Origin: Branchiostoma floridae
Lineage: Eukaryota > Chordata > Leptocardii > Amphioxiformes > Branchiostomatidae
DNA: 64,000 nucleotides
Assembly (NCBI RefSeq): GCF_000003815.2
Contig: NC_049996.1
Coordinates: forward strand, 8,827,310-8,891,309
Direction: 5' to 3'
The notes under the pieces are model-generated. The model was not told the DNA's origin. It did no database searches and saw only the letters and a list, made by a program, of their open reading frames with translations. A program made the position numbers and the translations under genes. Each line of letters starts with the position of its first letter. Position 1 is the stretch's first letter. Positions 22,701 through 52,821 of this stretch are shown here, piece after piece.

Positions 22701-25700
22701 TTGTTTGTTGTTCCTGTAGGTTCTGTTTGACCACAATGGCTGCCTGCGAACCTACAACAGTGTCCATCAGATCCTGCAGGAGTTCTTTGACCTGCGGCTG
22801 GAGTGGTACACCAAGAGGAAGGACTGGCTGATGGGGATGCTGGAGGCTGAGGCCAGCAAGCTTAACAATCAGGCACGCTTCATTCTGGAGAAGATTGAGG
22901 GCAAACTCGTCATTGGTTAGTCACCTCTTTTTGGTTCTAACCATTCTACAGAATTTTAGACAGGGCTTCCCGGCCCTGCCTTTCAATGCATATCTCATTA
23001 TCTGTAGCCTAGCCTACGCCAATGGTGTCACAACAAGGCACGCTCCATTTTGGAGATGAAGGGAGGTCATTGGTTAGCTCTTTCCAGTTATTCATTGTGA
23101 AAGCTTATATGCAATGAATCAAGTAAATTTAGTATTGCCTTGTCCCAAACTCAAAGTGCAGTTTGAAAAAAGCTACTACAGTTTCTTTCTTTGTTCCTTA
23201 TTTTAGAAGTATAAGGTATAGAAGTCATTTTTAGTTCTGTTTGAGTTCTCCTTTATAACAAAACAGCTGTAAGGCAAAGTTTAGTTTCTACTTTCGACCA
23301 GGCCTGTCCTGGGACAAAAACCCTGCTTGTAAGGACGGGCAAGAATTCACCCCATCTGTCAAAAAAATTGAGAAAGAAAATCGATGACATGATCTCTTAA
23401 ACAAGGAGTGGGACAGAAAAAAATGTCTATAGATAGCCAAACAATGTGAAAATTAATTTCTTTATCCAGATTGTCTTTTGTGGTACAGGGCTCAAAATTC
23501 ATTTTTGGGATTAGGTGCACTGGTGCACCCAGCTTAATAAATTGGGTGCACTGCACCACTTAGATTTAAGTAGAATGTCAGAAAAACCTAATAACAAAAC
23601 ATCAAATTCTTAAACAAGTACCATGGCAGACATTTTTATGTCTTAGATGTCAAGAATATGATGTATACTAGTACACTTTGATATCTTTACATACATACAC
23701 CAAAGAAAATATTTGGTTGCACCCTGTGCACCCACAGAAAATAATTGGGTGCACAGCTCCAATTTTGGGTGCACATGCACCCAGTATTTCGAGCCCTGTG
23801 GTAGAACTGGAAGTGACAGCTGTTCGACCAATGTTTCTCCTTCTCCCCTCCAGAGAACAAGCCCAAGCGCGAGCTGATCCAGATGCTTCAGGCGCGCGGG
23901 TACGACAGCGATCCCGTCAAGGCGTGGAAAGAGACGCAGAACGACAAGGACAAGCCTGATGACCTTCTGGATGTGGAGGAGGTTTGTCAGATTTTTATTA
24001 GTTATGCCTGCATAAGTCATTACCTAAAGATATGGGAAGTTTTTCAAGGAATCACAAAATTGTATTATCTACAGATATTTCTATACTTATCTAAAGTATT
24101 CAACATCAGTTCTTGTTATTTTGCTACAATATTTCTGTTATATAATCAGCAGGCTTCCCGTATAAAGTTTTCTTATTCAATGATGTCTTTGAATAAGAAC
24201 TGCTGCCTACCCCTGCGTCAGGGAACCCAGCAGCAGTATAATCTAACCATGGATAGTGAGTGTGAGTGTGAGTGCATGATGTCTTTGATAAAAATGTCCA
24301 TTACAGTAATGAGTAAAGCATATCACCAGGTGTCTTTTTACCAGTTCAAGTTGTGATTATGTTATACCAAAGTAAACATATCAATCCATTTTTATTCTTT
24401 TTGTAGAAGAAAGGGAGTGGAAAAGTATTATGCATTAAAATCTGTCCTTATGTTGACCTTCTCATCTCTCTTTCCATCTTCTGCCTGCTATTCACATGGA
24501 ATGCAGGCTTTCTACCTAAGGGTATAAAATTTCTTTGTCTCATGACTTTCTTATTGTATTTATCTATCTACTTAGTAAATATTGGAAAAGCTTGCAGCAT
24601 CTAAATATGATCTGTTAGAAGCTTTTACAACCAAAGATCAAATTGCAGTAGATTTATATTATACTTTACACTTCATCACAGCGGCAAGAAAAAGTAACAG
24701 TAGATATGTCGGGATGTCTAACCTTCAAACTTACTTCAAATATTATTTCAAAACCCTCTCGGTGACTCGGAATTGACTCCAGTCGTTTTTCCTGACCGTT
24801 TTTCGCTAATGTTGTCCACCAGGAGGAAGCTGAGAGCGTTGCCTCATCGACAGCCTCCCGCGGCGGCCCCGACTATAACTACCTGCTGGGGATGCCGCTC
24901 TGGAACCTGTCCAGGGAGAAGAAGGAAGAGCTGCTGAAACAGCAGAGGGAGAAGGGGCAGGAGCTGGAGGACCTGCGACACAAGACTCCCAGCGACTTGT
25001 GGAAGGATGATCTCAACGACTTTGTGGAAGAGCTCGAGGTAATTTCTACCTATTTGGTCCTTTCTGGTGCATAGGGTGGTGTCCATCTCAGTTTCTGTAG
25101 CCCTGGGTTGCACAACTTTCGTGCAATTACAACAGCAGGGGGCACCAGACTCCCAGCGACTGGGGTCTTTTTTGTCTAGTTCAGTCTGTTTGTTTATTTA
25201 TTCATTTGATTGGCTGTACAATCAGCCAAGGTTACCCAACTAGCCTTTGGCTATTGTAACTTAAGTGCTAACATAACCTTAGGTCAGTCTGTAATAGGGC
25301 TGGGTATCAGTACAGCGTACCTGTACAAAACCGTTTTTTTTTCTTATTGGACCGGTCCAGAAAAACCAGACCTGAAAAAATTAGGTGGACTGGATGTTGG
25401 ACCGATTAGAAATTTAACAGATTATTTTATCAGGCATTCACACTTTTTGGCGATTGCAGGTGGAAGAAAATAACAAGAGTGCAGTAGAGTAGAGTTTATA
25501 GAAATTTTTACCAAGTTTTACAGCCAATCGTATAGGTGCAGTTAGCGTTGTAGGATTTAAAAATGCCAGTATGAGTCTAATACTCCACCAAACAGATTTC
25601 TTTTTAGTGAACTGGACAATTGGTATGAGTCATACTGAATCAGGTTCAGGTCCGCACCTGGACCTGATCCTCTGGACCTGAACCGGACCTGAACCTGAAT

Positions 25701-33199: not shown

Positions 33200-34530
33200 G
33201 CGGGGCTGAAGTGTTGGGCCATGGGAGAGAGTTTGTGTGGGCTGAATTGAGTTTGCGGGGGCGAATTGAGTTTGTGGGGGCTGAATTGGGTTTGTGGGGA
33301 CTGAATTGAGTTTGTGGGGGCTGACTTGAGTTTGTGGGGGCTGAATTATTGAATTTGCGGGGGCTGAATTGAGTTTGTGGGGGCTGAATTATTGAGTTTG
33401 TGGGGGCTGAAGTGAGTTTGCAGGGGTGTTTGTGGGGGCTAAATTGAGTTTGTGGGGGCCGAATTGAGTTTGTGGGGGGCTGAATTATTGAATTTGCGGG
33501 GGCTGAATTGAGTTTGTGGGGGCTGAATTATTGAATTTGCGGGGGCTGAATTGAGTTTGTGGGGACTGAATTGAGTGTGGGGGCTGAATTATTGACTTTG
33601 TGGGGACTGAATTGAGTTTGTGGGGACTGAATTGAGTTTGTGGCGGCTGAATTATTGAGTTTGTGGGGGCTGAATTATTGAGTTTGTGGGGGCTGAATTA
33701 TTGAGTTTGTGGGGGCTGAATTGAGTTTGTGGGGGCTGAAGTGAGTTTGTGGGGGCTGAAGTGAGTTTGTGGGGGCTGAATTATTGAGTTTGTGGGGGCT
33801 GAATTATTGAGTTTGTGGGGGCTGAAGTGACTTTGCAGGGGAGTTTGTGGGGGCTGAATTATTGAATTTGCGGGGGCTGAATTATTGAGTTTGTGGGGGC
33901 TGAATTGAGTTTGTGGGGGCTGAATTGAGTTTGTGGGGGCTGAATTATTGAATTTGCGGGGGCTGAATTGAGTTTGTGGGGGCTGAATTGAGTTTGTGGG
34001 GGCTGAATTATTGAGTTTGTGGGGGCTGAATTGAGTTTGTGGGGGCTGAATTGAGTTTGTGGGGGCTGAATTATTGAATTTGCGGGGGCTGAATTGAGTT
34101 TGTGGGGGCTGAATTGAGTTTGTGGGGGCTGAAGTGAGTTTGCAGGGGAGTTTGTGGGGACTGAATTATTGAATTTGCGGGGGCTGAATTGAGTTTGTGG
34201 GGGCTGAATTGAGTTTGTGGGGGCTGAATTATTGAATTTGCGGGGACTGAATTGAGTTTGTGGGGGCTGAATTATCGAGTTTGTGGGGGCTGAAGTGAGT
34301 TTGCAGGGGAGGTTGTGGGGACTGAATTATTGAATTTGCGGGTACTGAATTGAGTTTGTGGGGGCTGAATTATTGAGTTTGTGGGGGCTGAATTATTGAA
34401 TTTGCGGGGGCTGAATTGAGTTTGTGGGGGCTGAATTGAGCTTGTGGGGGCTGAATTATTGAGTTTGTGGGGACTGAATTGAGTTTGTGGGGGCTGAATT
34501 ATTGAGTTTGCGGGGGCTGAAGTGCCTGAT
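33200..34530. repeat. G-rich 20/23-bp minisatellite
   Basis: About 1.3 kb of units GAGTTTGTGGGGGCTGAATT with or without an extra ATT (20 or 23 bp), plus GAATTTGCGGGGGCTGAATT variants. It lies just past the TOP2 poly(A) signal. The G-run strand is the TOP2 sense strand. Confidence 0.93.
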
Positions 34531-34937: not shown

Positions 34938-35221
34938 NNNNNNNNNNNNNNNNNNNNNNNNNNNNNNNNNNNNNNNNNNNNNNNNNNNNNNNNNNNNNNN
35001 NNNNNNNNNNNNNNNNNNNNNNNNNNNNNNNNNNNNNNNNNNNNNNNNNNNNNNNNNNNNNNNNNNNNNNNNNNNNNNNNNNNNNNNNNNNNNNNNNNNN
35101 NNNNNNNNNNNNNNNNNNNNNNNNNNNNNNNNNNNNNNNNNNNNNNNNNNNNNNNNNNNNNNNNNNNNNNNNNNNNNNNNNNNNNNNNNNNNNNNNNNNN
35201 NNNNNNNNNNNNNNNNNNNNN
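34938..35221. other. Assembly gap (284 N)
   Basis: Unsequenced bases between the TE remnant and the FZR-like 3' region. Confidence 0.99.
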
Positions 35222-36171
35222 ATCTCTGTTGGCCATATTTCATTTTACATACGGAACAAATACATAAAAGTTGACTTGAACAACAAAAAAGGGGGTTTCA
35301 ACACAACCAACAAACAGAGCTGCAAGTCTTGACAAGTTTGAAGTAATGTAAACCAGAAGTTTCTTTCGGGTGTACTCCTAATGCATGCTTGAACATATCT
35401 TAAGAATATAATAATCTCTGGATGAACAGAGCATGGCTTTCCACTGCGAGTATATATGTATAACCTTAAAAGGTAAAAAAATATTTAATGTTCAAATAAA
35501 AGGGCCAGGTATTAAAACGTTCTTACTGGGCTCAGAGGAAATTTTGAATTATAACAGCTTTTATACCACTTGTTTACTCCAATATTTTGGTTTTTGACAT
35601 ATTCCTCCTTACACTGACCAATGTGACTCTGGCCTACTGTTGGTTTGCACATAATTGAAGATGTAAGGTAAGAGAAATGTGTAACTCAAAGAAATATTCA
35701 TAAAAAGATGCTTCAAATGCTAGGAAAACATTGAGACTGAAGCAGCCTATATCTGCCTGGGGTACATGTTAGATCTTCACCATTATTTTACATTGTATCA
35801 TGTCTGTAGGATTGGAAATGCTTTTTCTTGCAGTTCTTTTCTTGTGTAGAAATTGTTTAAGTGTGAAAAAAAAAGTTCTTCTTGCTGTTAGCCTGAGGTA
35901 CCCTTAGCTTGGAACTGATGCCTGAGTTCCGTGGTCACCGGGAACACAGATTGAGTACTCACTCAGTTAGATTCCTGAAAAAATTAAGAGAAAAATCTTC
36001 GTAAAAAAAAAAAGAATGACAACTCTCAAATCAAGGAATACAAGAAACTTGCACAGTACAGAGTATTAGTTAGGTACAAGACAAATCTATGTCGAGTTTT
36101 GATGACATAAAAAGGTCATCACTAGTACATAGTACACTATGTGATAGTACTAGTACACTAGTACCTCTTAC
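35222..36171 (-). other. Probable 3' region of the FZR-like gene
   Basis: AT-rich and without open coding frames. A minus-strand ATTAAA (near 35486-35491) could be the poly(A) signal. A candidate terminal exon begins at an acceptor near 35975 (TTTTTTCAG), but joining it to the preceding donor gives only a few codons (RSHRI then stop). The expected Ile-Arg tail of Cdh1/Cdc20 proteins is not found. Confidence 0.4.
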
Positions 36172-39100
36172 TATGAGACCTAGTCTTGCTGAAGACGTTC
36201 CACAATCTTAGCGTCTCATCCCCAGCGCCGGTGACGATGGCCTTGCCATCAGGAGACATGGCGAGGTACAGCACACGGTAGGAGTGGCCCATCAGCTTGG
36301 CCACCTGCACCAAAGATGGGTACTTCCACACCAGGATCTGGTTCTGGGAGAACCCGTGGGTGCTCACCTGTGTGAGGAGAGCAAAAATCAGACTTTGGCA
36401 TTGAATCAAAAGGTAGCAGAGTCCAGTTACATCTGAGAATGTTACATGTATAATCCTTGCCTTTTAAAGCTGGCTTACCTGAGGAATTTTCCAACATCAG
36501 ATGAAAATCATGAAATAGATGAGTTAGCAGCGGTTCCAAGTTACGGTCAATGTTGGAAAGGTCTACATGGAAAGCCAGCTCAAAAAGCTGTCAGAACTAT
36601 AGGGAATATGTAGTTGATGTTACAAATATCAATCTGTCAGTCTTCTTATCCATCAGCATGGTATTAGAAGTGAAACTGAGGGAAAACCCTGAACTAGGAC
36701 AGACTTACGTCTAACAAGTGGCAACTTGACTTTCTGGAATATTCAGCATTATATGATAGTATAATTCAAGTAGGCTTGTCAATTCTCAGTTTTGCTCCCT
36801 GTTAACAACATAGCCTAACAAGAGATAGAAAACCTACCAGCTCGTTGGCATGTTTGGACCAGGCCAGGTTGCAGACCTGAGAGCCCGTGTCCACACACTT
36901 TAGCGGCTCACACGTCAGAGTGTTCCAGAACCGGATGCAGCGATCAGCTGTGCCTCCGCCGGACGCCAACAGACCTCGCTGGTGGGGTGACCAGGCGATG
37001 GCCCTGACAGCAGCCAGGTGCTCGGTGTACTGCTGGACTGGGTTTACACTGGTCAGGTTCCATACAAACAACTGCGGAAAAAGAAAGGGATTGTGGCATT
37101 CTAAAAATTTTCATTTTAAAATTAGACCCCGTTTTTTTCCTTGCCACTCTTTTTCATTTCAAACATTTACACATAGCTAATACTTTTTTCCTTTGGCAGT
37201 CAAGGGTATATTTTGTATCTATGGGAGCCGTCTTTACCATGATTTTTGTTAGATCTAATAATAATAATGTAAATTTGTACACTTATGTTTGAACACCTAT
37301 GATTTTAACAAACAAATAGAAAACATTATACAAATGTAGTTCAGAAATTGAAGACTCGAACAGAGATGTTGAATTAAAGGACCTGATATAGAAAACATGT
37401 CTTTTCACCTTATTGTCATTAGCACCTGAGGCCAGGTGTTGGTGATCAGGAGAATACTTCAGGGCACACACCTGTAATAAAAGAATAGATAAATAAATAA
37501 ACGATCAAAACACTACAATTAACAAAATATATGACTACAAAATAGCACTATAGATTAGTATAATCTTATTTGTAGAAACGTGAATGTTTCCACTTCTTGT
37601 GCTTTGGTACTTCAAGTTCAGTGTTCCGTTTACTTTATTTCTATTTTCTGCAATACATGTTTCTTGACACTGAGCCTGTATTATTTTAGCGTGCAAAATT
37701 TCAAATTACTTTTTTAATGTTTTTTAAAATCACCAAAATATTTCATACAAATTTCAGGCTGCAGGTGAGTGTTTTGAACCCTGACAGTTCAGTCTTACAG
37801 CCTACATCCACATCACTGTTTCCATAGCAACTAGTGCCTATTGTGTTTACCTCATGGCTGTGTCCGGCCAGTCTTCTCTCTGGCACTACGCTGGGTGTTC
37901 TCACGTCCCTCTGCAGAACAAGTCGATCTCTACTGCCCGAGGACAAGATGTCTGCATTCCATGCCAAAGCGCCTGTGTGTGGGAGAAAGAAATCATTATC
38001 AAACATCTTTTTGGTCCCTAATAATCGATTTCTGTTAGCCTAGGTTAAATCCAAGTTCTACCAGTGCTCCTTGTGCTCGCTAGGGCAGAGAGTGCTTGCT
38101 AGGGCAGAGAGTGCTCGCTAGGGCAGCGAGTGCTTGCGAGGGCAGCGAGTGCTTGCGAGGGCAGCGTGTACAAGGGGCACCGGTAGAAATCGGATGGTAC
38201 CCAGGTTAGATTTCTATTTTAGTTCTTCCAACATCATATATGGTGTATACAGCAGCACAAATCTTGGAATCCTTGGCCCTTGGGCCACATAGCTAAGCAT
38301 GCACAATGACTAGTCCACTCATTGCACATTATGTTCAACTTCAAATCTTTCCTACATTAGTTACAACCTCTGAGTGCTATGCACAGAAGCAGTAGGTAAC
38401 ATGTTATACTTATTGGTCTTTCCAAAATCGAATTTAAAAGATTCCTCTACTGAATGCAAAGAAAGCTTCTGCCCAATACACTTTTGCAGTGGTGTATTTA
38501 ACTTGCTGATGATGAATAATTGTTGGAAGCAATGCAAGTTACATGAAGGTTAAAGACTGGATGACTCCAACATGTGTTAATTGAAAGGCCTGCTGTTACT
38601 AACCAACTCTAGCCGAGTGCCCCTCCAACACAGAGATCCTTTTGCCTGCCATGGCGTCCCAGACTTGGACATAACCCTTTTGGGTCCCGACCGCAACCAG
38701 GTTCCCTCTCTCGTTCCAGTTGACTGATGTTACAGAGTCGCCGTTACAAGACAGGTCACATAGTCTTGTCTTCTGTACAGAAAAAAGATACATGATGTCA
38801 GTAAAGAAAAATAACTATTGCAAAGAGCTGCCAGACAATTCTATATCAGTAACAGCTGAAATGTAGAGATCCTTTACATACCATAAAGTTTAAAAATGCT
38901 TACTGTAATAGTATTACAGTAAGCATTTTTAAACTTTTCAAAACCGGAAAGTGGTCCCAAGATGTTGCCAAATGTAACAGGGTGCCCCTGCACTGTATTG
39001 TAGTTTAGCTGTGTTCCTTGTAGTTTCCAAGATGTGTGCATTTAAACTTTAGTTCCTTGTCCAGTATCCCTGTTCAGTTCTCAGAAAAGGGAGTGGGTGG

Positions 39101-40799
39101 TCAGAGTTAAATGACCCCAGAAGTCTTAATGACCTTCATCTCAGTGGGTCTGGTGTGCCTGATGGTCAGTTTGCTGGTGGGCACAACCATATTTGGTATG
39201 GCTAGGGACTGACCATAGGAAGTTAAGTCATTGATGATGTCGTGATGATGTAAAGAGAAAGAATGTACGTAGGCGGATAAGAAGCACATGAATAAGGAAA
39301 TAGAGCCCATGTACTCAGAGTAGTCTGGAGAGGAGAAGAGAGATGTATTGTTCAGCTTTGGAGAGAGAAGAAATACAGACACGTCTTCCATGTAGCTCTG
39401 GCTCCTTGTGTCCTTGGTTCGCGTACATAAGTATAAGATCTGCAGCTATTCCCAAACTCTGTAAGGGGTGCCTTCGAAGTCAAGGTCACGACCAACTATC
39501 ACCCTTACACAAAGTCGAGTTGCGTACTTTATTTGAGGTAACTGTTCGGACAAAATCAGACCCCAAATCAGCTAGAAACAAATTGGAACACGGACACTTA
39601 TGGCTTAGAAAAGCATTGAATGATCATACATGAAATAAATTTTAGAATTTTGATTTGGTCAGCCAAATCAAACATAAGATCTATGGCACTTGATGGTAGA
39701 TTATCTCTCTACTAGTATTACCATGACAAAACCGAGAAAGAAGAAGACCTACCTGACTATCATTTAAATTCCACAAATATACAGACGTTCCCAGTCCAAC
39801 ACTCAAGGTGTTGGTAGCTGACCAATCAACAAGGTTTAGGTAGAAGTCATCTTGGAGTTCTGGGGCATGAAGAACCTGGAAGGGAAAAAAATTGTTATAA
39901 GGTGTCTTCTTGAAGAAAATAAAAGTTCACTGATATTTCATACATCAACATGAATACTACAACATAAAATCAATATAATATTCAAATCATTATGGTACTC
40001 GAAACTTTTCCTCCGGGATCCTTTTGAATTCTTACCAAATCATCATCAACATGATCTATTGACATGTTCACACACTGCAGGGATTATACTGCCCCTTACG
40101 GGCTGACATACCCTTTCGTTAGCTGATAGGGATATGCCAGGTGTAAGAAATGAGTCTTTGAAATATTCAAGAACCAAGAAAATAAACTGTCATCACCTAA
40201 TACTGCACTGAAGAGATTAACAAAAGTCACAACCTATTGAACCTTAGTTAGTTTGCTACAAGCAGGGATCGAAATCCTTTTTTTTTTGCTACATGCAAAA
40301 TTGCAAGTTGACAAAAATTTTACAATTTGAAAAATTTACATGCAAAATACAACTAGTCTATACTGCAATGATCTAGCCAGCATCCATCTCAGGATTACTT
40401 TTTATTTAACGGACTGAAATTGGCGCATGAAAATATAGACAAATTTTGGAAAGATATCCACATAATCAGCATGTAAGTTTGCAGCAAAGTCAAATTTTAT
40501 TACTTATAAGGCTTCTGACGATCCCCGTCAGACAAACAAAGGCATCGTGGCCTCAGTGTTTTTACTATAGGCCAGGTATTTCAACATGCAAGACTGCAAG
40601 TTCAGAATATTGCAAATCTCAAAAACTTATGTGCAAATTGCAAGTTAAGTATGTGTATTTCGAACCCTGACAAGTAAACCATTAAATATCCAATTCTACT
40701 CATGCTCACCTTGAAAGGATTTTTGAAAATCTTGTGTGTCTGTTTTGTGGGTGAACGCAGGTACCGGTCCTGGAGTTTCTGTGACTTTTTCCTTGTAGG
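36172..40799 (-). CDS. FZR1: Fizzy-related (Cdh1) WD40 APC/C coactivator, N-terminus not found
   Basis: Substrate-recognition activator of the anaphase-promoting complex. Minus-strand exons: the FZR part of 40710-41214 ([15 protein letters not shown] to FKNPFK), then 39753-39875, 38604-38772, 37851-37972, 37409-37471, 36838-37071 and 36172-36367. All are GT-AG with consistent phases. The peptide follows animal Fzr1 closely: [92 protein letters not shown] and [18 protein letters not shown], covering the seven-bladed propeller. The N-terminal C-box exon is not seen between 41 and 54 kb; instead a zinc-finger frame leads directly in. The C-terminal IR tail is also not located. The gap at 43551-44025 could hide the N-terminal exons. 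Confidence 0.9.
38036..38209. mobile_element. Foldback MITE with internal 19-bp tandem repeat
   Basis: In an FZR-like intron. Approximate inverted ends: TTCTACCAGTGCTCCTTGT left and ACAAGGGGCACCGGTAGAA right. The middle (about 38070-38166) is five 19-bp units of the form GTGCTCGCTAGGGCAGAGA. Confidence 0.7.
38885..38937. repeat. Perfect 26-bp-arm palindrome
   Basis: Arms of 26 bases (AAAGTTTAAAAATGCTTACT onward) separated by a single G. Lies in an FZR-like intron and would form a near-loopless hairpin. Origin unknown, perhaps a minimal MITE. Confidence 0.9.
40060..40125 (-). repeat. SINE tail fragment
   Basis: CCCCTTACGGGCTGACATACCCTTTCG matches the tail of the tRNA-derived SINEs at 13592 and 19948, with the same orientation as the former. 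Confidence 0.6.
40263..40669. mobile_element. hAT-like MITE, TGCAAGTT-type interior
   Basis: Ends CAGGGATCGAAATCC and GTATTTCGAACCCTG. The interior repeats TGCAAATTGCAAGTT-type words and so differs from the other two interior types. It lies in the FZR-like intron just after the zinc-finger/FZR exon. Confidence 0.7.
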
Positions 40800-41213
40800 A
40801 GTCTTCATACTACATAGCAGACTGAACCCACTGCTGCACTCTTCACACCTGTGGGGTTTCTCCCCTGTGTGAGTCTGAATGTGTCTCTTCAGACTATCTG
40901 ACCTGCTAAACTGCCTGCTGCACTGCTCACACCTGTAAGGTTTCTCCCCTGTGTGTGTACGGATGTGGATCTGGAGTTTATCCGACCTGCTAAACTTTTT
41001 ACTGCACTCCTCACAACTGTAGGGTTTCTCTCCAGTGTGACACCGCATGTGGCTTGTCAGTCGATCCTGATGACTGAACTGCCTGCTGCACTCCTCACAC
41101 CTGTAGGGTTTCTCCCCTGTGTGAATCCGCAGGTGCCTTTTCAGATTGCACCCCTGACTGAACAGCTTGCCGCACTCCTCACACTCGTAGGGTTTTTCAC
41201 CTGTAGGGTTCAT
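40710..41213 (-). CDS. C2H2 zinc-finger frame fused in phase to the FZR exon
   Basis: The frame opens at ATG 41213 ([18 protein letters not shown]) behind an acceptor-like TTCCCTTCTTCAG, exon start 41214. It encodes four complete C2H2 fingers with TGEKPY linkers and then a fifth with its CxxC but no histidines ([18 protein letters not shown]). There it passes without a stop into FZR sequence (PTRKKSQKL, near 40799) and ends at the genuine FZR donor (AAG then GTGAGC) in the right phase. No convincing pyrimidine-rich acceptor lies at the junction. It could be a real zinc-finger/APC-coactivator chimera, or a zinc-finger pseudogene that truncated FZR. Confidence 0.75.
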
Positions 41214-41261
41214 CCTGAAGAAGGGAAAATATGACTGATTGATCTAAGAATAATTCCATTA

Positions 41262-41500
41262 GACCACACCAATTCTATTTGTTGTTTCTCGGATTTCATG
41301 ACACTATTTTTTCTGATTTTAAAAGAAAAAAAACTTTTCAAATTGATGACCACACAAAATTTCACTGCCTCTCCTTTTTTAAATTAACTATGGGCCTCAA
41401 ATTCCAGTAGCTGTACATGCCTATTTTGGACGGTACTAGTACTTTTATCATTTTTCGTCAAACTTTGGATTTTGCTACCAGAGACCCCCTAAATGTTTAA
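41262..41500. mobile_element. Truncated Harbinger-like MITE
   Basis: Preceded by TTA and starts GACCACACCAATTCTATTTG. The interior follows the complete element at 47306-47719 (CTATGGGCCTC, GACGGTACTAGTAC) but no right terminal repeat is seen. Confidence 0.6.
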
Positions 41501-41796
41501 AGTTTAGGTTTTCCTGTCCAATCTCTCCTAACCTAGGCACTGTCCACTTGAATACTTTAGATCAATGCAAGATATAAACCACTCTCAATACTTGAGCTAT
41601 AGGAAAAACTACTACTAGTACTATCAAAACCACAAAAGCTGTCATTAAATTCAAGAGGCAACATAATCTTTTATTGATGACCCCAAATATTGAAGACTTT
41701 TTTTGACAAGTTAAAAGAATTCAGTATCTTGTCAGCTCGTAATTGTAGATGATTGTCTAACATTTTCTGCTACTTTGTCCAGGAAAAAGAGATTTA

Positions 41797-42201
<405 letters not shown>

Positions 42202-42803
42202 TTAATGCTTGCGTTGAGTTTTTTTTTACATAGTATATGATATGTTATGACAATATATAAATTATATATTAAATTATATTATAATTACTCAAGGTTTACA
42301 ATGTACAACACTTGCATAGTGGGGCGTGTTTTTTTACTCGGACCTTCACATTCCGACAATAACCTTGATCTATAGCCGCGAAACGTTGCCTCTCTACTTC
42401 ATTTTCCTAAATCCCACTCAATACTATAAGGTGTGCATAATACTAATAGTAATTATTGGTATACTATAGTATTTTACTACCTTTGAGTATATTGATCCTC
42501 TTCTGTTTAGAATATTTCAGATATTTTCATTCATTGCAATTCAGCACAGCAATTCAATAAATTTTTGTCATCATTTGAAGAGATTAGATACATCAAAATG
42601 GAAGGTAAAATCAACTACTGTACATGACTGTACTTGGTAACACTTGCAGAGGGCCCTGGGGGCTCTTACAATCCGGACCATGAGTCAATTATACAGGCCT
42701 GATACTGCCTTCTTTCTCGAAGATACTATTCTGGCATATACACGTAAAAAAAAAAGTTATATATGCAAGATATGTATGACTATACTATACATTTATTTTT
42801 TGC

Positions 42804-42854
42804 AAATATTGTTTTTTCACTCACTTCAGTAAAGTGAGTGAAAAAACAATATTT
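42804..42854. repeat. Perfect 23-bp-arm hairpin, 5-base loop
   Basis: Left arm AAATATTGTTTTTTCACTCA onward, loop CAGTA, and an exactly complementary right arm. It stands alone in AT-rich sequence. Confidence 0.9.
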
Positions 42855-43029
42855 TGGTGAAATATATTCAAATAGACCTGGAGTGATCTTGTCTTTGTTT
42901 TATTCGCCTTGTGCATGGTATAATAGCATTCCAGAAAATATAGTTTTACTATCTCATGCACAACTGTGAAAGCAAATAAAATCTCCAAACACCACGGAGG
43001 TCATTCCGGCTAATTTCTACATTTTACAC

Positions 43030-44584
43030 CATGCCCGTAGCCAGGGGGGTTCGGGGGGTGCGGACGCACCCCCCACGCGGGCTCGAAGGTCCGCTTTTTT
43101 CACGAAGGTCCGTTTTTTCAATGCACAATACTTTTCAAAGGCGGACTAATTTGTATTTCCAACGGGTCTAGAATCCTAGAAAAATTGCTCACATTGTCTG
43201 TGGTTTACAGTTAGTTCTTCCTGAGTCCGGGGCGTTCTACTGTTTAATAATATGTAAAAGACCCGGCCCGCGCGAGGTGGGGCGCGGCACGCGTTAGAAA
43301 GACAACTTTCACGCAATCACCCTCGTATAACTCCAGCTCCGGCCCGCACGGTCCAGCTCTTGCCCGCACGGTCCAGCTCCGGCACACACTGATTCCAGCT
43401 CGGTGCGGGCCGGAGCTGGACCGTGCGGGCCCGAGCTGGAGTTTAACGGGGGTGGCAATGAAAGTGGCTGACCGCAGTCAAAAAAGTCAAGCCTGGCTGT
43501 TGCTATGGTAAAAGTCGACTGGAAGTCTTTGGCGGACTGTGGATGACAGCNNNNNNNNNNNNNNNNNNNNNNNNNNNNNNNNNNNNNNNNNNNNNNNNNN
43601 NNNNNNNNNNNNNNNNNNNNNNNNNNNNNNNNNNNNNNNNNNNNNNNNNNNNNNNNNNNNNNNNNNNNNNNNNNNNNNNNNNNNNNNNNNNNNNNNNNNN
43701 NNNNNNNNNNNNNNNNNNNNNNNNNNNNNNNNNNNNNNNNNNNNNNNNNNNNNNNNNNNNNNNNNNNNNNNNNNNNNNNNNNNNNNNNNNNNNNNNNNNN
43801 NNNNNNNNNNNNNNNNNNNNNNNNNNNNNNNNNNNNNNNNNNNNNNNNNNNNNNNNNNNNNNNNNNNNNNNNNNNNNNNNNNNNNNNNNNNNNNNNNNNN
43901 NNNNNNNNNNNNNNNNNNNNNNNNNNNNNNNNNNNNNNNNNNNNNNNNNNNNNNNNNNNNNNNNNNNNNNNNNNNNNNNNNNNNNNNNNNNNNNNNNNNN
44001 NNNNNNNNNNNNNNNNNNNNNNNNNCTTTGGCGGACTGTGGATGACAGCGCCGACACAAGTTATGATAAGCTATAGAACTGTAGTTAATTGATAAATGTA
44101 GATGCCATACTTTTTATCTTGTACAATTGTTGTGCAACAAAGGTATACACCGTGATAGAGCCTGCTGATTGGAACGATGTAGTTTCACCTAAGAGGAAAA
44201 ATATTTCAAGTAGAAGAGCGTTGTAAAGCATCCAGTTTTCGTGTCGGTTGTCGTATACAAATTGAATGGGGTATCAGAGCCAGTTAAAAGTTCGGAGAAG
44301 TGATGACGTGCCATTTCATAACTGATGTACCCAATCTTTCGTTTTCGTCGAATAAAATAATGTCTGAAGCAGTTGTGTGTCTCTGATTTTTCCTTTGACA
44401 ATCTCACAAAAACGCAGGAAATGCCATTTCAGAGAGTTCAATTTTCAAAATTTTCCGGGGGAATATGCCCCCGGACCCCCCTAGGAAACTCGCGCCTTCG
44501 GCGCTCGCCTCGCGTCTTTGGCGCTCGTTGGTCCGTCAAAGAGTAAAACAAACCCCCCCAGGCAAAATCCTGGCTACGGGCATG
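43030..44584. mobile_element. TIR element spanning a gap
   Basis: Inverted ends CATGCCCGTAGCCAGG and CCTGGCTACGGGCATG, with TACAC repeated outside each end (43025-43029, 44585-44589). Subterminal G/C runs and a GC-rich inverted repeat (43340-43441, GCCGGAGCTGGACCGTGCGG type) occur inside. The centre is the 475-N gap, so coding content is unknown. Confidence 0.7.
43551..44025. other. Assembly gap (475 N) between identical flanks
   Basis: CTTTGGCGGACTGTGGATGA plus CAGC stands directly before and directly after the Ns, suggesting an unresolved tandem repeat or two overlapping contig ends that were not merged. Confidence 0.97.
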
Positions 44585-44688
44585 TACACTAAATTCCTGA
44601 AGCAGGGTGTAATTTTATCTAGCGACGGAAGGGTTAACCATGTAAATTCCCATAGTCGAAAAACTGTGTTATGAGACCGTTGGGGGGG

Positions 44689-45372
44689 TATCAGGACAAC
44701 TCGGCACCTGGGACAACTCGTCCCCAGTCAATCAGGACGACTCGGCACCTAGCCCAGGACAACTCGTCCCTTAGTTTAGGACATGTTGGCACCACATATA
44801 CTCAGTACATCATTTGTGTAATTTGGGCTCGGAAAACAGTTTTAACGATCTTGGAGCTCTAGTCGATCTCATGACTATAATTTTCACTTTGCTAGGCAGA
44901 TATTTTCATAGCGTCGGCAAACTTGGGTGCGCTCTGAGCGGAACCACTGTGACCTTGTCGGCCCCGGCCGTCAGTTCACCCGAGTCGGCTCAGAGACTAC
45001 TGGATTACATTATATACATGTACTAGTTGGCTAAAAACTACTTGACATTATGAAGCATACACTAAGCTTCTTGGTCTTTGTGAATATGCTCAGTTTCTTT
45101 AACGTTATACATTTGTATTTCAAATAAAGCTTACTCGTATTTTGAGTGTAATTTTTGAGTGACGCTTCTGGTCCTGTTCGTGGACATAAAGTCCAATTGA
45201 AGAATAAAATGAAAGTGTCCACCGTTCTTTCACATCTATAGATACCATCTAGGGGTAATTTTGTTGCTTGGACATGTCCAAAACTAAGGTGCCGAGTTGA
45301 CCTGCGCTGGGTGCCGAGTTGTCCTGATTGTTCAGGGGCCCAGTCGTCCCAGGTGCCGAGTTGTCTCGGAAT
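44689..45372. mobile_element. TIR element, possibly Mutator-like
   Basis: Both sides carry AGGACAACTCGGCACC-type words in inverted orientation, including internal repeats of ACAACTCG. CCGTTGGGGG lies just outside both ends (44677-44686, 45373-45382); a 9-10-bp duplication would fit Mutator-like elements. No coding sequence recognised. Confidence 0.65.
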
Positions 45373-46544
45373 CCGTTGGGGGCAGTAGGTGGAAGTGAGG
45401 TACCGTTCCAGAAATATGCTCCTTCTTTCCTTACAATAACTTACAACTGCATTGGATCCGGTCCAAATGGTCAGAGGAATGTGAAGAACAAAATAAGGTG
45501 CGACTTTACCGACTAAAACGCACGTGGCGTGTGTTTTGTGGACGAAATTTGACAGACCAGCTCACCTTTCTTCACCACAGAAATGTCGTCCTCTCGAATC
45601 TCCCGCCGGAAGTTGCGTTGCATCATGGGAACACTGTGCCTGGACCGAAATATCTCAAAGCAGATGCAGGGTACGCTCAGTTTATTCTTGCGAGTGTGAG
45701 TTTCTTGAAGTAAACCCTTCTAAAAAATTATCAGCGTTTTTCCTCGGTGGTGCTTACTTCAGCAAGCAGGATCAACTCAGACCTATTGTAACATCATCTG
45801 TATTTAGACTGTAGCCTGTGTTTACACACAATCTCTCACTGCACTGGCTGGCCAGAGAATTTTTGGCGGCACGAAGACGGAATCGCAAGGTGAGAAAGTT
45901 TTCTGTCTTAAAATGTCTTCAAATTTGTGACGTTTACTGTGAATCCTTCGGACAGGTTAACCCAGGCAGTTTAAGGAACAATGCGGTGTATGGTTTGTTT
46001 GGTTTTGTTGATTTTTTTTGCTCAGTATTCGCAAAAAGTTTGATAGAGAGTGTGTATGTGAAGTCAAGGTTAATAGTTGGCGCAGGAGGGTCTGCATGGG
46101 GGAGGGGGGTGGGCGGTGGTCCCGACAACGAATTCAGAAGAACATCCTTCGTATTTTTTAATACGCTAAATCAATGAGGGTAATAACGCTAAATTTGGTC
46201 ACCTCGCTACGAATTTAAATACGAGATGAGATGGTTTTCCCTACGAATTACGGGAAATAAAACTAGGCTGCCTTAGTAACGCCTTACAACAAGAGCATGC
46301 AGACCCTCTTTCAGGGGGTTAGGCTATTCTCCAAGCAGAGGTTGGGTCGCGGAAATATAGTAGTGGTCGGTAAAGTAGTGGTCGGGGTTTGTTACGTGCG
46401 CAGATGTCATCCATATAATCAAATCAACATGGCCCCACGTGTTTCAGCACAACAGTTTCTGTATGTTTTACCAGAGGGGGCGAAGTCTGCTATCTCTGAT
46501 TGAGTTGTTCATGTTGTCATTGCAGGAGTGTATTACTCTTAAAT
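45373..46544. other. Upstream region of the zinc-finger gene
   Basis: GC-richer than its surroundings and without a recognised gene. Parts (AAGCAGATGCAGG, CTCAGTTTATTCTTGCGAGT, TGTAGCCTGTGTTTACACA) recur at 49.9-50.5 kb. A minus-strand ATG frame of 61 nt (45566-45626) ends on a donor-like GTGAGC but has no partner exon. AAATATGGCG at the zinc-finger start codon is YY1-like. Confidence 0.4.
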
Positions 46545-47129
46545 ATGGCGTCGAAAGGCGAAAGTTCAGGTGACCACAAAAGAGAAGTAAAAAGTGCTAC
46601 AGGCATGAAAACCTACAGGTGCAAGGACTGCAGCAAGCCATTCAGTCAGCAGGGTGCTCTGAAGGTTCATATGCGGACTCACACTGGGGAGAAACCCTAC
46701 AGGTGTGAGGAGTGCAGCAAACCATTCAGTCAACGGGGTGCTCTAAAGATGCATATGCGGACTCACACTGGTGAAAAACCCTACACATGTGAGGAGTGCA
46801 GCAGGCAATTCAATGGCCTGGGTCATCTAAAAAGGCACATGCTTACTCACACTGGTGAAAAACCCTACACATGTGAGGAGTGCAGCAGGCAGTTCAATGA
46901 CCTTGGTCATCTGAAAAGACATATGCAAACTCACACAGGGGAGAAACCCTACAGGTGTGAGGAGTGTGGCAAACAGTGTAGTAGGCTGGATCATCTGAAG
47001 AATCATATTCGGACTCACACAGGAGAGAAACCGTACAGTTGTGAGGAGTGTCACAGGCAGTTCAGTGACCCGAGTCATCTGAAAAGACACAGGCGGACTC
47101 ACACTGGGTCAGAAACACTACCACCATGA
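46545..47129 (+). CDS. Six-finger C2H2 zinc-finger protein
   Basis: Single open frame of 194 aa starting MASKGESSGDHKREVK. A short charged leader is followed by six C2H2 fingers (CKDCSKPFSQQGALKVHMRT first, CEECHRQFSDPSHLKRHRRT last) joined by TGEKPY linkers. The fifth finger has CGKQCSRLDHLKNH, with Cys replacing the usual core Phe. No KRAB, BTB or SCAN domain is present. Tandem C2H2 arrays normally bind DNA in the nucleus; the target is unknown. The same repertoire type appears at 40.8-41.2 kb, so both may be lineage-specific duplicates. An acceptor-like TCATTGCAG at 46516-46524 suggests a possible 5' UTR intron. Confidence 0.88.
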   Translation: MASKGESSGDHKREVKSATGMKTYRCKDCSKPFSQQGALKVHMRTHTGEKPYRCEECSKPFSQRGALKMHMRTHTGEKPYTCEECSRQFNGLGHLKRHMLTHTGEKPYTCEECSRQFNDLGHLKRHMQTHTGEKPYRCEECGKQCSRLDHLKNHIRTHTGEKPYSCEECHRQFSDPSHLKRHRRTHTGSETLPP

Positions 47130-47305
47130 AAAATGTTTAGTCAGCTGGATAACTTGAAGATTTGCATGGTTTAGTGAACATTACGCATGTGAAGTAAGAT
47201 CTCTGAGTCTTAAGGTTCTTGGAGTATTGATCAGTATTTAGTAACTCTTCCAGACATTTGGATGGATGTCAGTGAATAGAAAAAATAATTATAAGAATTT
47301 TTTTA

Positions 47306-47719
47306 GGCCACACCACTTTTATTTGTTGCTTCTCAGATTCTGCTGTCCTATTTTTCCCAATTTGAAAAAAAAAATTAGCCACACCTCCCGTTGACAAATT
47401 TTCACAAATAAACTATGGGGGTCTTTACGTGGTTATTTTGAACGGTACATTTAATTTTTTTTCAAAATTGGGGCTTTGCTAATTAGGGACCACCCTAGAT
47501 ATTGATTTGTTGCATAAAATGTGCCAAGGAAATATAAAAATTTCTTATTTGTTAAATCTGTTGTTATGTACAAATGTACATGTATGTTGTGCAACTTGAG
47601 TAAGCACCTTGATCTCCTCACCTGACTTTTTGCCCCAAAAAATTCTAATTATTTTTTCAACCTGCCGGTCCAATTTTTTTGTAAAAATCCGAGAAGCAAC
47701 AAATTAAATTGGTGTGGCC
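47306..47719. mobile_element. PIF/Harbinger-like MITE with TTA duplication
   Basis: Inverted ends GGCCACACCACTTTTATTTG and CAAATTAAATTGGTGTGGCC-type sequence, flanked by TTA (47303-47305, 47720-47722). 414 bp with no open frame. Partial relatives at 33138 and 41262. Confidence 0.85.
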
Positions 47720-47830
47720 TTATATTTGAAAAAAAAGAAGACCAGACAACAGTGATCTTTTAGGCCACCAAGTGAGGTAGACTAAAAGTTAGCTCGCACT
47801 CTCTGTATAGTACAGGTACAAAGTAAAGAG

Positions 47831-48165
47831 GAATTCAGAATTTTCTGTTTAGACCTTGTGTTGTTGACCTTGCTGTTAAAATGTTAACAGGACGTTATGT
47901 CTGGATCTCCTGGACAGAGAAAAAAGACAGTTAACATGGGCTCATAATCATATAAGGAACAGAGCAAAAGCCACCTTTGTTTTTGTTGAGGAATTGAGAA
48001 TTTTTCTGTTCAGACCTTGTGTTGTTGACCTTGCTGTTAAAATGTTAACGTTATATATAAATAACAGGAAGTTATGTCAATCTCCAGGACAGAGAAAAAA
48101 GACAATAAACATGGACTCATATAAGGAAAAGAGCAAAAGCCACCTTCTTTTATTTGTTTTTGTGG
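47831..48165. repeat. Tandem duplication, 160-bp unit
   Basis: Two copies starting at 47831 and 47991 share GACCTTGTGTTGTTGACCTT, GCTGTTAAAATGTTAAC, GGACAGAGAAAAAAGACA and AGAGCAAAAGCCACCTT. The second copy has an added TTATATATAAATAACAG. Downstream of the zinc-finger gene; no gene content. Confidence 0.88.
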
Positions 48166-49008
48166 AGGAAACATTTCCTTGATTTCGGCTTTCTGAGTCC
48201 ATACTGCATTTCACAATGCATCATTCATTCTAGTTGTCACATGCATGTTACTATACTGGCATTCTATGTTAAAGTTGGTTATCAAAACTTAGTGTTGAGT
48301 TTGTTTACATCGAGGAGAAAACCTCCTGGTTTGTTTAAAAAACGTTAATTGTTGGTAGGTTTCAAATTTTGTACTTACTTGGCCTTGATTATAGCTCTTT
48401 TTTCTTGTAAAGAAAGTTTGATATTTAAGGAAGCATGTAGGGTGGTTTCTTCAGCAAGAACTTTGTTTTTGGACATTGCTTTTGTTGGTTAACATTGTAG
48501 CAAGTGACATCAAAGTTTTCATTTACCATGAGATGTCTCTCAAGGATATATCTACTACAGTACTAGTACGTAAATGCAGAATAATGTACAAGTTTAATGA
48601 TATTCCTCTGTGGTCAATCTTCTATATAGAGATTATACATGTAATGCAGTTGACTTGTAATGCATGTATGCAAGAAATGTAGACTTGCAAATTGAGTTAC
48701 ACTTAGAACTTAGGAAAAATTCTATTATCTTTGATTTGAAGCTCTGAGCTACTACAACTATCACTGTGAGATATCTTCTAGAAACACTATTGTCTATTCA
48801 TGCCATCTGTATGTAAAATTATGTTACATGAATGATGTATATTTGGAGCCAATGCATCTTGTTGAAGAAAAGCTTTGAAATAAAGTCACTGTGATGCAAC
48901 TGAACCTTGATAGTGTAACGTTGCATTGCATCAATGTCCACAGTTTATCTAAAGATGTCTCAAGGCTGCAGTATATTTTCAACGCTAAACATTAATGTAT
49001 ATAAGGCT
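48166..49008. other. AT-rich intergenic
   Basis: No gene recognised. A plus-strand AATAAA (48878-48883, in GAAATAAAGTCACTGTG) could be a poly(A) signal for a zinc-finger transcript with a long 3' UTR. Confidence 0.4.
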
Positions 49009-49255
49009 CCTACGATCATAATATAGTATCAAAAGCTGGTAGAGGAGCGAAGTTGGCTTAGGAGTGTTTCGCTACCGGGGCAAATGCACACCTCTTAGCT
49101 GACTACACTCCTTGGCCAGTCTAGTTACTGTATCTTATGCCATCGTAGGATCTGCTTGGAGATTGGTCTCCTGGCTACCCGGATTCGAACCCTGGCCTGC
49201 CAGGTCACAAACCCAACCCTAGGTTTGGGCTGCTAGGCCAAAAGTTCCGGATCTT
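49009..49255. mobile_element. 5'-truncated Mutator-like MITE plus SINE head
   Basis: 49009-49164 ends GTAGGATCTGCTTGGAGATT and carries AGTATCAAAAGCTGG, the family of 50616-50771. Directly after it, on the minus strand, GGGTTCGAATCCGGGTAGCC is a B-box-containing SINE fragment (49165-49255). Confidence 0.65.
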
Positions 49256-49284
49256 GGTAAGCACTTGAACCCCACTGTTACAAT

Positions 49285-49495
49285 ACTGTAAATGCATTTA
49301 AGTTTGCAGGGATTTAATGGAGTGTAGTGGTTTTAAAGTTGCGGTAGTGCCATCCTGCGAACTTATTTACAGTGACTAAACTGCAGTCGCACACTGTGTT
49401 ATGAATATTCACTGCGGTTTTTAGTTCAGTGGCCACCGCAAAAACAGCGAATATGAAACAACCGTTAAAGTTTCTGCATCTACAGTAAGTTGCTG
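49285..49495. mobile_element. MITE, TACTGTAAATGCATTTAAGT family
   Basis: Starts TACTGTAAATGCATTTAAGT and ends with the inverted TTTCTGCATCTACAGTA. A second copy is at 58335-58545. The interior repeats GGTTTTAAGTT and CGCGGTAGTG words, also seen as fragments near 14650 and 26430. Confidence 0.7.
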
Positions 49496-50606
49496 TCAGG
49501 AATCCCCAGATTTCCCCCATGTAGGCCCTTAGCCATAAAATCTCGCTTATAGCAGCACGTCAAACATCCGCCGGCCCCCCGCGGGGAGGGGCCAGTTACA
49601 GCCCTGGACATCGGAGTTTTCGTTACACGGACTAGTAGGCCCTCATTCACGATAAGTTTCATACATGTAAAGCAGTGTGTTATGAACCCACCGTGAACCA
49701 CGTGATCACTCCCACCCAAACCCCCCTATTTTAGAAGTAGACTAGTCCTGTTACCTCATTCTGGTGCAAAGAATCCTGGATGAAGGACATTAGACTATGT
49801 AAACTCTTCAAAATGTCCAGTGTGCGACCAGTTCTTTACAATTCATCAATAGCCTTACTTACCATCATCATAACACAGTGCACGAATCTTCAGTGCACAG
49901 TGCACAAGTCTCGAATCTTGAACTCGAACCTCACGCCGAAGAGCACTGCATCATGGGAACAAACAAACAAACACCTGTTACCTGTGTTGCTCCCAGACCA
50001 GGAGTGAACTAATCTAATCAAGTACACCTCCATCTCCAAGCAGATGTAGTGTGCGGCTCAGTTTATTTTTGGGAGTGTGACTTTCTTTAAGTAAAGAGTA
50101 AATCCTTAAGGATTAACTTTTTTTTTCTCCATACTGAAAGGATTACAAGATATTGTACTTTAACCCCCTTGGTTTAGAGGTATTGCCTGGTGAGTTATAG
50201 ATAAAAACCTAGATGGTTCAAAACTATTAGTGAAGTTCCCATTCCTTATGATTATCAATAGTGTAAAATTATCGTTTTGGTTGGCTATGGATGATCAGAA
50301 TTTATGTGAGATTTTTTGGTTTCCCCACTAAATGCTGCTGGGCTATATCCATTTCATTGTCTTTTCAGAATTGTGCTCATCAAACAGCATTACTGGATTC
50401 TTGTTATATTAGAGTCCTTAAAAATCAATAATCTATCCCTAATAATTGCAGCTGATGGCAGCATCTACATTTTATTGCGACACATATTTTGTACCTTAAC
50501 TGTAGCCTGTGTTTACACAATCTCTCTCTGGCTGAGAAAGGCCTGCCGCTAGGAGCACAATTTTAGTCAGGCTACCCTAGACTGCATCAAAATCAGTTGG
50601 GATGCA
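49496..50606. other. Intergenic with diverged copies of 45.6-45.9 kb
   Basis: No gene. GCATCATGGGAACA (49948 onward), AAGCAGATGTAG, GCTCAGTTTATTTTTGGGAG and TAGCCTGTGTTTACACAATC repeat words from 45.6-45.9 kb in the same order, implying an old duplication or shared TE. Confidence 0.5.
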
Positions 50607-50615
50607 ACCTTCTGA

Positions 50616-50771
50616 TAATCTCCAAGCAGATCCTACAATGGCATAAGATAGTACCAAACTGGCCAAGAAGTGTAGTCAGCCAAGAGGTGTCAATTTGCCC
50701 CGGTAGCGAAACACAATCCTAAGCCGGCTTTTGATACTACCTTATGCTACCGTAGGATCTGCTTGAGATTA
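50616..50771. mobile_element. Mutator-like MITE with perfect 9-bp duplication
   Basis: 156 bp with inverted ends TAATCTCCAAGCAGATCCTA and TAGGATCTGCTTGAGATTA. Flanked by identical ACCTTCTGA at 50607-50615 and 50772-50780. The 9-bp duplication is characteristic of Mutator-like elements. The cleanest copy of the family in the window. Confidence 0.88.
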
Positions 50772-50780
50772 ACCTTCTGA

Positions 50781-51220
50781 TGCATTCCAAGAGATGTTGG
50801 CAATATTGCCATGGCAATCATTACATTTGCACCCCCACATTACCCAATTTGAAAACCTGCCAGAGCACTGAAATAATAAGCAATAAAATAAGATAAAACT
50901 CTTGAATTTTCATGCCATCAATTTCATTTTATCCTCCATTTTCTGACTAGATCACCAGCATGACCACTGTACTGTAGTACTGGTAGTAAGACTCCCCCCC
51001 CCCCTTTCAAAAAATTAATTGCCCAATCCATTAACTTTCCTCCTGAATCTGTTCTACAGTAACAAACCAATAAATTCAGATAGTACTCTTAAATTTCTAT
51101 GCCATCCTTCATTTACTGACTAGATCACCAGCATGACCACTGTAAGGGTACTCCATTTAATTGCCCCATCCTCCTGAATCTGTTCTATTTGTATTAGTAA
51201 CAATCAAGGACACTTCATTC
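50781..51220. other. Intergenic before RPL41
   Basis: No gene. The phrase ACTAGATCACCAGCATGACC occurs twice (near 50945 and 51118), marking a local duplication of about 170 bp. There is a C9-C10 run near 50994. Confidence 0.5.
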
Positions 51221-51235
51221 AGCAAAACAGAAGTC

Positions 51236-51241
51236 TTTATT
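51236..51241 (-). terminator. RPL41 poly(A) signal
   Basis: Minus-strand AATAAA, about 390 bases downstream of the RPL41 stop codon. Confidence 0.65.
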
Positions 51242-51627
51242 CAAGATCACTTTGAAAGAAGAAGTAGGTTTTGCTGAAAAGGGTTTACAAGTAGCTGTAA
51301 GCGAGGTCAGGCATTCACAGGTGTACATCTGTCCAAAGCAGAACGACTAACAAGAGACACAATCGTAACATGTTCAGCTCTTCAACGGGAGAACACAGTT
51401 CGTGTTTTCAATCTAGAGAGAGTCAGTTCTTTTCTGCTCCCAAGATTCAGACAGGAACCCGTGTTGCATTGTAGCAATCCCAAGTCCATCCGAACGTCTG
51501 CTTGGTGAAGTAGTGTCACTGCAACCACAGGAAGGCTGGATACTGGAGGTCTCCTCAGATGTTCAGTGTTGATCCAGTCTGCATCGGACAGGTCCATCTG
51601 TGAAGCCGGGATGGTGGCAGGTGGTGC

Positions 51628-52821
51628 CTACTTGGACCTGGCCCTCATCTTTCTCCTTTTTCTCTTCAGCCTGAAAGAGGAACAGGTGGAGTTCAGTAAC
51701 TTCAAGAGATCATATTTACAGCACAACAGGGTTAGGATCTAACAAGAATTCATGCAATTTCCTTTTATAACGGGTACCCTCCCCTGGGAACCTTCAAAAA
51801 ATATTAGTACAAAATGGCAGACAAAAATGAATTTTACAACCTTTGAAACGCAAATACAGTAGAAGCCACTTAATTGCATGGCCTATTTGCCAGTAAATTT
51901 CGTGCAATTATCCGGTTGGTGCAACAATGCGAAGTTATTTAGCTGGACTGCTCTGTTTAGGGATTTGGGGATTCCGTACAGATAAAACTTAAAAGAAGTG
52001 TGCATTAATCCGGTGTGCAATTAACTGACTTCTACTGTATACATAATTTGATGTTAAGATGCCAGCAAAATTAACGAGCATTTCTTCTGCACAATTAAAT
52101 GATGTGACTGTAGTGCAACAATATATGTTTGCTCACCTTCGCATACGCTTCTTCTTCCACTGTGGAAAAGATGAAAAATAAATTAAGTTGGGAGGATCAG
52201 TCATTTTTTAATTAACATACACAGAAACTGAGCTGACGACAGTTCAAGTCTAAAAATTATGATATTTATTGCCAAGATTACAACGTCATGAAATGCAAAG
52301 TTGTTATTATCTATTCAAATAACGAAGCCATGTTTCATCTAAAATTTTCATAATTTGAAATAGGGTGCTAGAAAATCTATGCGTAAAAAATCATGCCATG
52401 TGCAAATTATTACTTGGACGACATAACCTGACATCCACCGAATACCAATAAAATCGTCTACAAATCAAGCAAGAAATAATTTGCCTCGTGTTTCTAGTTT
52501 CGTGCATGCATGAATCATTTTTAAGAACATAAGTTTTAGGCACATGGCAGGCAAGTGCATAATGTGTTTTAGTTTCCGAAATTGTACCCAGCACGCTTTT
52601 CTGACCGTCCAAATTGCGGGAAAAAATTCAGGACACAAAGCATTGATTTTTCCTATGCAATTTGTGGAGATAGCGAACGACAACGCTACTGAAGAAGTTA
52701 TGGGGGAATATAATCGAAGAAGAAGAATCGTTCAAATTCGTGACGCATGATGCTTCACACCCAAAACCTTATCTTCTTCTCAAGCTATTTTTGGTTCTTT
52801 TCAACTTACCTTGGCCCTCAT
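51628..52821 (-). CDS. RPL41: Ribosomal protein eL41
   Basis: Tiny, extremely basic 60S-subunit peptide. Three coding exons on the minus strand: 52810-52821 (MRAK), 52137-52159 (WKKKRMR plus split R) and 51628-51670 (LKRKRRKMRARSK, stop TAG). Total 78 nt = 25 aa, the usual eL41 length, with near identity to other animal eL41. All borders are GT-AG: AAG/GTAAGT, CACAG/TGG, AAG/GTGAGC, TTTCAG/GCT. A CTGCAG acceptor (ending 52827) five bases before the ATG shows that the 5' UTR is split. It is too short for ordinary gene finding. Confidence 0.93.

Follow-up and report, generated by a model that had tools for sequence, protein, structure and literature searches.

A partial FZR duplicate joined in frame to a C2H2 zinc-finger exon in Branchiostoma floridae: a candidate chimeric gene with a conserved propeller

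The window analysed here, a 64-kb stretch of the amphioxus genome (C18:8827310-8891309, in an assembly of 513.4 Mb and 431 contigs), carries on its minus strand an open frame in which C2H2 zinc fingers run directly into sequence of the APC/C coactivator FZR. Exon A (41214-40710) lies behind a good acceptor (tcccttcttcag/G ATG, with 80% pyrimidine over the 20 nt preceding the AG), has an ATG at 41213, and comprises 168 codons, which encode four full fingers, half of a fifth, and an FZR linker whose last residues, NPFK, stand directly at the GT of a good phase-0 donor at 40710 (AAG/gtgagc); the phase is the same as in the homologous exon of the FZR gene on C15. Its C2H2 block (40800..41204, minus strand), kin of a large array family, begins within a TGEKP linker and ends within finger five. 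The four full fingers follow the pattern CX2CX12HX3H with TGEKP linkers and, in a sequence search, match C2H2 chains deposited in the PDB for PRDM9, ZNF568 and CTCF. The FZR-derived end of the exon (40710..40792, minus strand) is homologous to C15:9913439-9913509 and contains a 12-nt insertion that splits the KLLR motif.

Exons B (39753..39875, ending NDSQ), C (38604..38772), D (37851..37972), E (37409..37471), F (36838..37071) and G (36172..36367), likewise on the minus strand, continue exon A in phase and make up a complete CDC20/Fizzy WD40 propeller, giving a predicted protein of 472 residues; if exon G is spliced, the last coding piece lies at 35967..35974 on the same strand. Exons A-G are free of stops, frameshifts and lost splice sites, save for the altered end of exon G, and exon boundaries and phases are the same in the window propeller and in C15 FZR. 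The coordinates, frame and phases confirm the original prediction of an in-frame finger-to-FZR fusion that switches inside finger five and reaches an FZR donor in the correct phase.

Several other features share the window. A minisatellite (33229-34521) of about 63 copies of 20-bp units (GAGTTTGTGGGGGCTGAATT) follows closely on the 3' side of the FZR duplicate and of a run of N (34938-35221). A separate open frame of about six C2H2 fingers (46500-47129, plus strand) stands 5 kb upstream of the chimera and on the opposite strand. Farther away, at 22091-22807 on the plus strand, part of an exon that we take to be topoisomerase II-like is tandemly repeated in five copies with the same start and 118-130 bp spacing; every copy is preceded by a ttcctgtag acceptor of its own, the last alone runs into a longer coding frame, and the repeats could represent alternative acceptors or a recent expansion.

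The FZR identity of the window copy is beyond chance, given that 264 of 332 aligned columns are identical to human FZR1 and that the propeller matches the Pfam model PF24807 (WD40_CDC20-Fz) over its full length (1-292/292) with 418.1 bits against a cut-off of 200, the C15 protein scoring 440.7 bits. The canonical gene lies at C15:9911027-9918194 on the plus strand, has 11 coding exons and encodes 500 aa, starting with MDQDYERRLL and containing the C-box DRFIPSR, SQKLLRSP and a C-terminal THIR; it is the second FZR with a C-box for which the original prediction had proposed a search. Since a complete, normal coactivator is present in the genome, the window gene is an extra. Searches of the same genome, with queries of 73 and of 332 residues taken from the window copy, returned one other FZR, the one on C15, together with Cdc20 and, at C18:17398996, a short, decayed fragment; the Cdc20 label is our own assumption for C15:20606830-20611518, which was matched in four pieces at 43-60% identity to the window copy.

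Homology of the duplicate runs from the middle of exon 4 of C15 FZR, its fourth coding exon, to past the gene end, and nothing in the window copy corresponds to exons 1-3 or to the earlier half of exon 4. Introns occupy the same six places in both copies, and a portion of every one (117-360 nt) can be aligned with C15; alignment blocks that span introns and 3' flank stand at 68-77% identity, and this homology indicates duplication at the DNA level. A retrocopy or processed pseudogene is ruled out by the kept and partly alignable introns, and an allele or haplotype copy of FZR by a Ks of 0.36 and the location on separate contigs. The notion that a zinc-finger gene had landed in FZR was likewise not borne out, given that the FZR sequence here represents a partial duplication and that the acceptor and start of the finger exon are common to a second locus on C18.

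At the junction itself, finger homology mostly stops at 40802-40799 in the best matches, in some earlier and in a few at 40796, and FZR homology begins between 40801 (by BLAST) and 40792; the letters CTC or CTCCT at this point would fit both sides. The finger family of the exon A block has at least 161 matches in the genome, the window included (40 of 825 candidates were scored). Most of the best of these span 41204 to 40802-40799, and the age of the fusion cannot be read from the fingers because the closest other arrays, among the matches scored, are 81-82% identical to the block. A hidden acceptor at the junction was considered and set aside: by a simple pyrimidine count, used without a splice model, none of the 23 AGs between 40900 and 40700 exceeds 60% upstream pyrimidine, compared with 70-95% in the 17 acceptors of the window and C15 FZR genes, in agreement with the earlier remark that no good acceptor exists there. 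The absence of a C-box exon upstream was also upheld for the readable part of the 64 kb, where a six-frame pattern scan found no C-box (475 N at 43551-44025 are unreadable), and neither tblastn nor a motif scan of the readable sequence turned up N-terminal exons of FZR anywhere else in the window.

Upstream of the chimera, the intron next to the exon A acceptor holds a dispersed repeat of ~280 bp (41256..41533, minus strand), with at least 35 full-length copies that are 80-86% identical, and a further neighbour of exon A is a broken UBE2E-type E2 fragment (41551..42206, minus strand). Three relatives with normal-looking exons occur at C18:9.58-9.73 Mb; two of the three have an upstream exon (RIQ[KR]ELAEITLDPPPNC), separated from the following one by about 6 and 15 kb, and in the third it falls outside the stretch examined. 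With regard to capture of a UBE2E promoter, BLAST of window positions 41200-52000 against the three relatives gave, past 42706, no matches other than short and scattered ones that resemble repeats.

The same neighbourhood recurs at a sister locus 8.5 Mb away (C18:17390130-17388999), where a UBE2E fragment damaged in a related way is followed by an AG/GATGA acceptor and a four-finger exon that closes with a stop codon of its own and is not fused to FZR. Because the acceptor and ATG of exon A are common to this locus (C18:17.389 Mb), the ATG at 41213 is a plausible translation start. A start of the form AG/GATGA is not general in the finger family, given that only 2 of the 20 loci examined open the finger frame in this way, the window being one, and the shared start is therefore a feature of the C18 relatives. 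At 7-10 kb beyond the sister finger exon, on the opposite strand, there are decayed FZR exons D and then C; another finger array separates the two, and tandem repeats surround them. The exon C region shares intron insertions with the window, and of its 34 informative differences 18 agree with the window, 12 with C15 and 4 with neither; the exon D piece carries no signal (of 14 differences, 5 agree with the window, 7 with C15 and 2 with neither). These FZR pieces are dead, which implies that the duplicate was dispensable there. The broader stretch C18:17384001-17412000, with its finger arrays, UBE2E fragment, decayed FZR exons D and C and tandem repeats, is a scrambled sister of the window block.

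These observations bear on whether the fusion might be an assembly join of a finger contig and an FZR contig, as the original prediction had allowed. Runs of N do lie nearby (34938-35221 and 43551-44025), but the nearest is 2.7 kb from the junction, and a Ks of 0.36 between the C15 and window copies means that they are not alleles. Moreover, since the same types of neighbour, FZR-duplicate pieces included, stand together within about 10 kb at an independent second locus (C18:17.39 Mb), a join of this kind appears extremely improbable.

A different possibility is that the propeller duplicate works, but that its mRNA enters exon B (at 39875) from another 5' exon, the finger exon being part of a different transcript and the frame matching across the junction by chance (1 in 3). 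The exon B acceptor is good by pyrimidine count, constraint on the FZR-derived end of exon A is lower than on the propeller (it has 4 changes in 23 residues and a four-residue insertion), and 475 bases upstream are unsequenced, all of which would suit such an entry. However, exon A has kept its donor and its phase and stays open from the fingers into FZR, the sister locus has the same acceptor and ATG conserved, and the readable window yielded no further 5' exon of FZR; entry at exon B is unlikely in our judgement, although by no means negligible. Production of the finger-propeller fusion as a protein, as predicted from these sequence features, is the reading that we slightly favour.

Comparison of the window copy with C15 FZR over 325 codons gave a Ka of 0.049, a Ks of 0.359 and a Ka/Ks of 0.137 (bootstrap 0.081-0.213), where about 0.5 would be expected of a neutral copy beside a conserved parent, in a test that is pairwise, within one genome, and with a single outgroup sequence. 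That outgroup, human FZR1, has 493 aa, the same length as 4ui9_R, and residues named in the papers fall at the expected positions of its numbering. With it, 29 of the 30 residue differences could be placed, 27 changes being on the window copy, 0 on C15 and 2 assigned to neither branch, and on this comparison the window branch is relaxed relative to its C15 parent, yet far from neutral. The 975 coding nt contain a single gap, which is in frame, compared with 20-37 gap events per kb of aligned intron, a rate that depends on the alignment (37/kb over 1243 nt with loose gap costs, 19.6/kb over 967 nt with strict ones), the introns being only partly aligned.

Neutral evolution was also simulated from the C15 sequence (2000 runs each) at d values of 0.11 and 0.18, which are half of the local intron divergence and half of Ks; two values were used because intron divergence in local alignments (0.20-0.22) is below the Ks of 0.36. 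At d=0.18, 0.2-0.35% of runs were stop-free and all had at least 71 replacements, and at d=0.11 the corresponding values were 2% and at least 38, compared with no stop and 30 replacements in the observed propeller. On this evidence, the propeller is maintained by purifying selection. At d=0.05, however, 37% of runs show 30 changes or fewer and neutrality is not rejected, which leaves room for a recent end of selection. In simulations of finger decay, four intact fingers were kept in 0.9% of copies at d 0.1 and in 8% at 0.05, and the intactness of the fingers is, given the undated junction, suggestive only as a sign of constraint; for the same reason, part of the selection signal may be older than the fusion.

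In this context, the window copy might be a duplicate that died only very recently, having been under selection during most of its existence, and that is now untranscribed. Such a history would accord with its faster evolution than C15 (27 against 0), with the broken IR tail described below and the decayed FZR pieces at the sister locus, and a short neutral spell (d about 0.05) would leave no mark; nevertheless, no stop and no frame-breaking gap is present in exons A-F and the GT-AG sites of the propeller are intact, and we consider recent death rather unlikely.

Coactivators dock on the APC/C through the C-box, which contacts APC8 with the aid of KILR/KLLR, and through the IR tail, which contacts APC3 (PMC5717348 and PMC11473103, excerpts). 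The window copy has no C-box, the duplicate starting downstream of it; its KLLR is interrupted by four residues, QDRY, through the 12-nt insertion; and its IR tail is lost by a 2-nt deletion at the end of exon G, which shifts the frame of the last exon, and a 4-nt insertion in the old tail, the predicted C-terminus being TRSHRI and a stop with exon G spliced, or TRSHSKRY and a stop unspliced. On account of these lesions, the window copy should not work as an APC/C coactivator, as far as sequence can tell. The proposal of a new kind of APC/C coactivator consequently finds no support, all three elements being gone or broken here and present in the canonical FZR on C15; a true coactivator with added DNA-binding fingers would be compatible with the complete propeller and its KEN contacts, but against the absent or broken docking elements it must be considered very unlikely.

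The degron-binding surface of the propeller has a different record. Residues proposed by modelling to contact the KEN box (D187, F188, N333, N335, G376, T377, Q401 and R445; PMC9926468, excerpts) are all kept in the window copy by residue comparison (8/8), N333 and N335 being encoded in exon E. The acidic pocket for Arg P1 of the D-box is formed, by docking, by D180 and E465 (PMC9713472, excerpts), and the Cdc20 mutant D177S/E465S bears on this pocket (PMC6712056, excerpts); in the window copy E465 is kept and D180, encoded in exon B, is replaced by His, a change that probably weakens D-box binding. ABBA-site residues are equal to those of C15 FZR (12/12). According to the excerpted text of PMC8764033, the human Cdh1 WD40 domain by itself binds KEN peptides (dwell times 0.17-1.48 s), but none of the ABBA peptides was bound. 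Taken together, we hold with high confidence that the window gene is a genuine partial duplicate of FZR whose propeller has been under selection and whose docking has been lost.

The sequence itself shows a copy of FZR, running from the middle of the fourth coding exon to past the gene end, behind a C2H2 exon on C18, the middle of a finger being joined in frame to the middle of an exon; the propeller has remained intact under purifying selection, and the C-box, KLLR and IR tail have been lost or broken. From there on, a possible course of events can be outlined. Transcription would come from upstream, with splicing into the acceptor at 41214 and a translation start at the ATG at 41213, and the product would have ~472 residues, comprising four DNA-binding fingers and a degron-reading propeller. 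With less certainty, KEN-containing proteins might be bound without being ubiquitinated, as proposed on the basis of the kept KEN surface and of APC/C docking not being expected in any known mode, and the protein might either shield them as a decoy or, as a tether, hold them where the fingers bind.

Regarding the strength of these proposals, we are evenly divided on the general reading of a chimeric gene born by partial DNA duplication and possibly acting as a DNA-tethered degron reader independent of the APC/C. A role of the finger-propeller protein as a decoy for KEN proteins, or as their tether, is put forward tentatively, as suggested by residue conservation. Similarly speculative is the fuller picture of an amphioxus-lineage protein that would combine a four-finger DNA-binding array with a Cdh1 propeller free of the APC/C, and that would act on chromatin as a tether or shield for KEN-box proteins, locally opposing APC/C-Cdh1. 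If true, this gene would be a natural experiment that uncouples degron recognition from ubiquitination, with the degron surface selected, docking lost and DNA-binding fingers gained, as well as an example of a new gene that arose from partial duplication into a zinc-finger neighbourhood.

Propellers of coactivators are known as APC/C subunits. Compared with FZR1/Cdh1, represented by the C15 copy and human FZR1 (PDB 4ui9_R), the window copy is alike in its whole WD40 propeller and KEN contact residues, but it is without exons 1-3 and half of exon 4, where the C-box lies, has a split KLLR, no IR tail and the D180H change, and has four C2H2 fingers instead. With C2H2 array genes, a large family in this genome that PRDM9, ZNF568 and CTCF exemplify, exon A shares the TGEKP linkers and C-X2-C-X12-H-X3-H fingers; the window array, however, breaks off in the middle of finger five into FZR, whereas the sister array at C18:17.389 Mb has its own stop after four fingers. 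APC/C-independent roles of Cdh1 have been described (PMC4860961 and PMC6697746, excerpts), there for the full protein, which also serves the APC/C, whereas the docking elements of the window copy are lost. Furthermore, amphioxus is known for domain shuffling (PMC2575513 and PMC4284660, excerpts). The combination of C2H2 fingers with a Cdh1/FZR partner was not found in the titles and opening lines of abstracts of the open-licence literature, among the matches listed. Partial gene duplication that gives rise to chimeric genes is, in turn, a known class of new-gene origin, which the window gene resembles in its DNA-based truncation in mid-gene and its in-frame join to the exon of another gene, and of which it would be a case.
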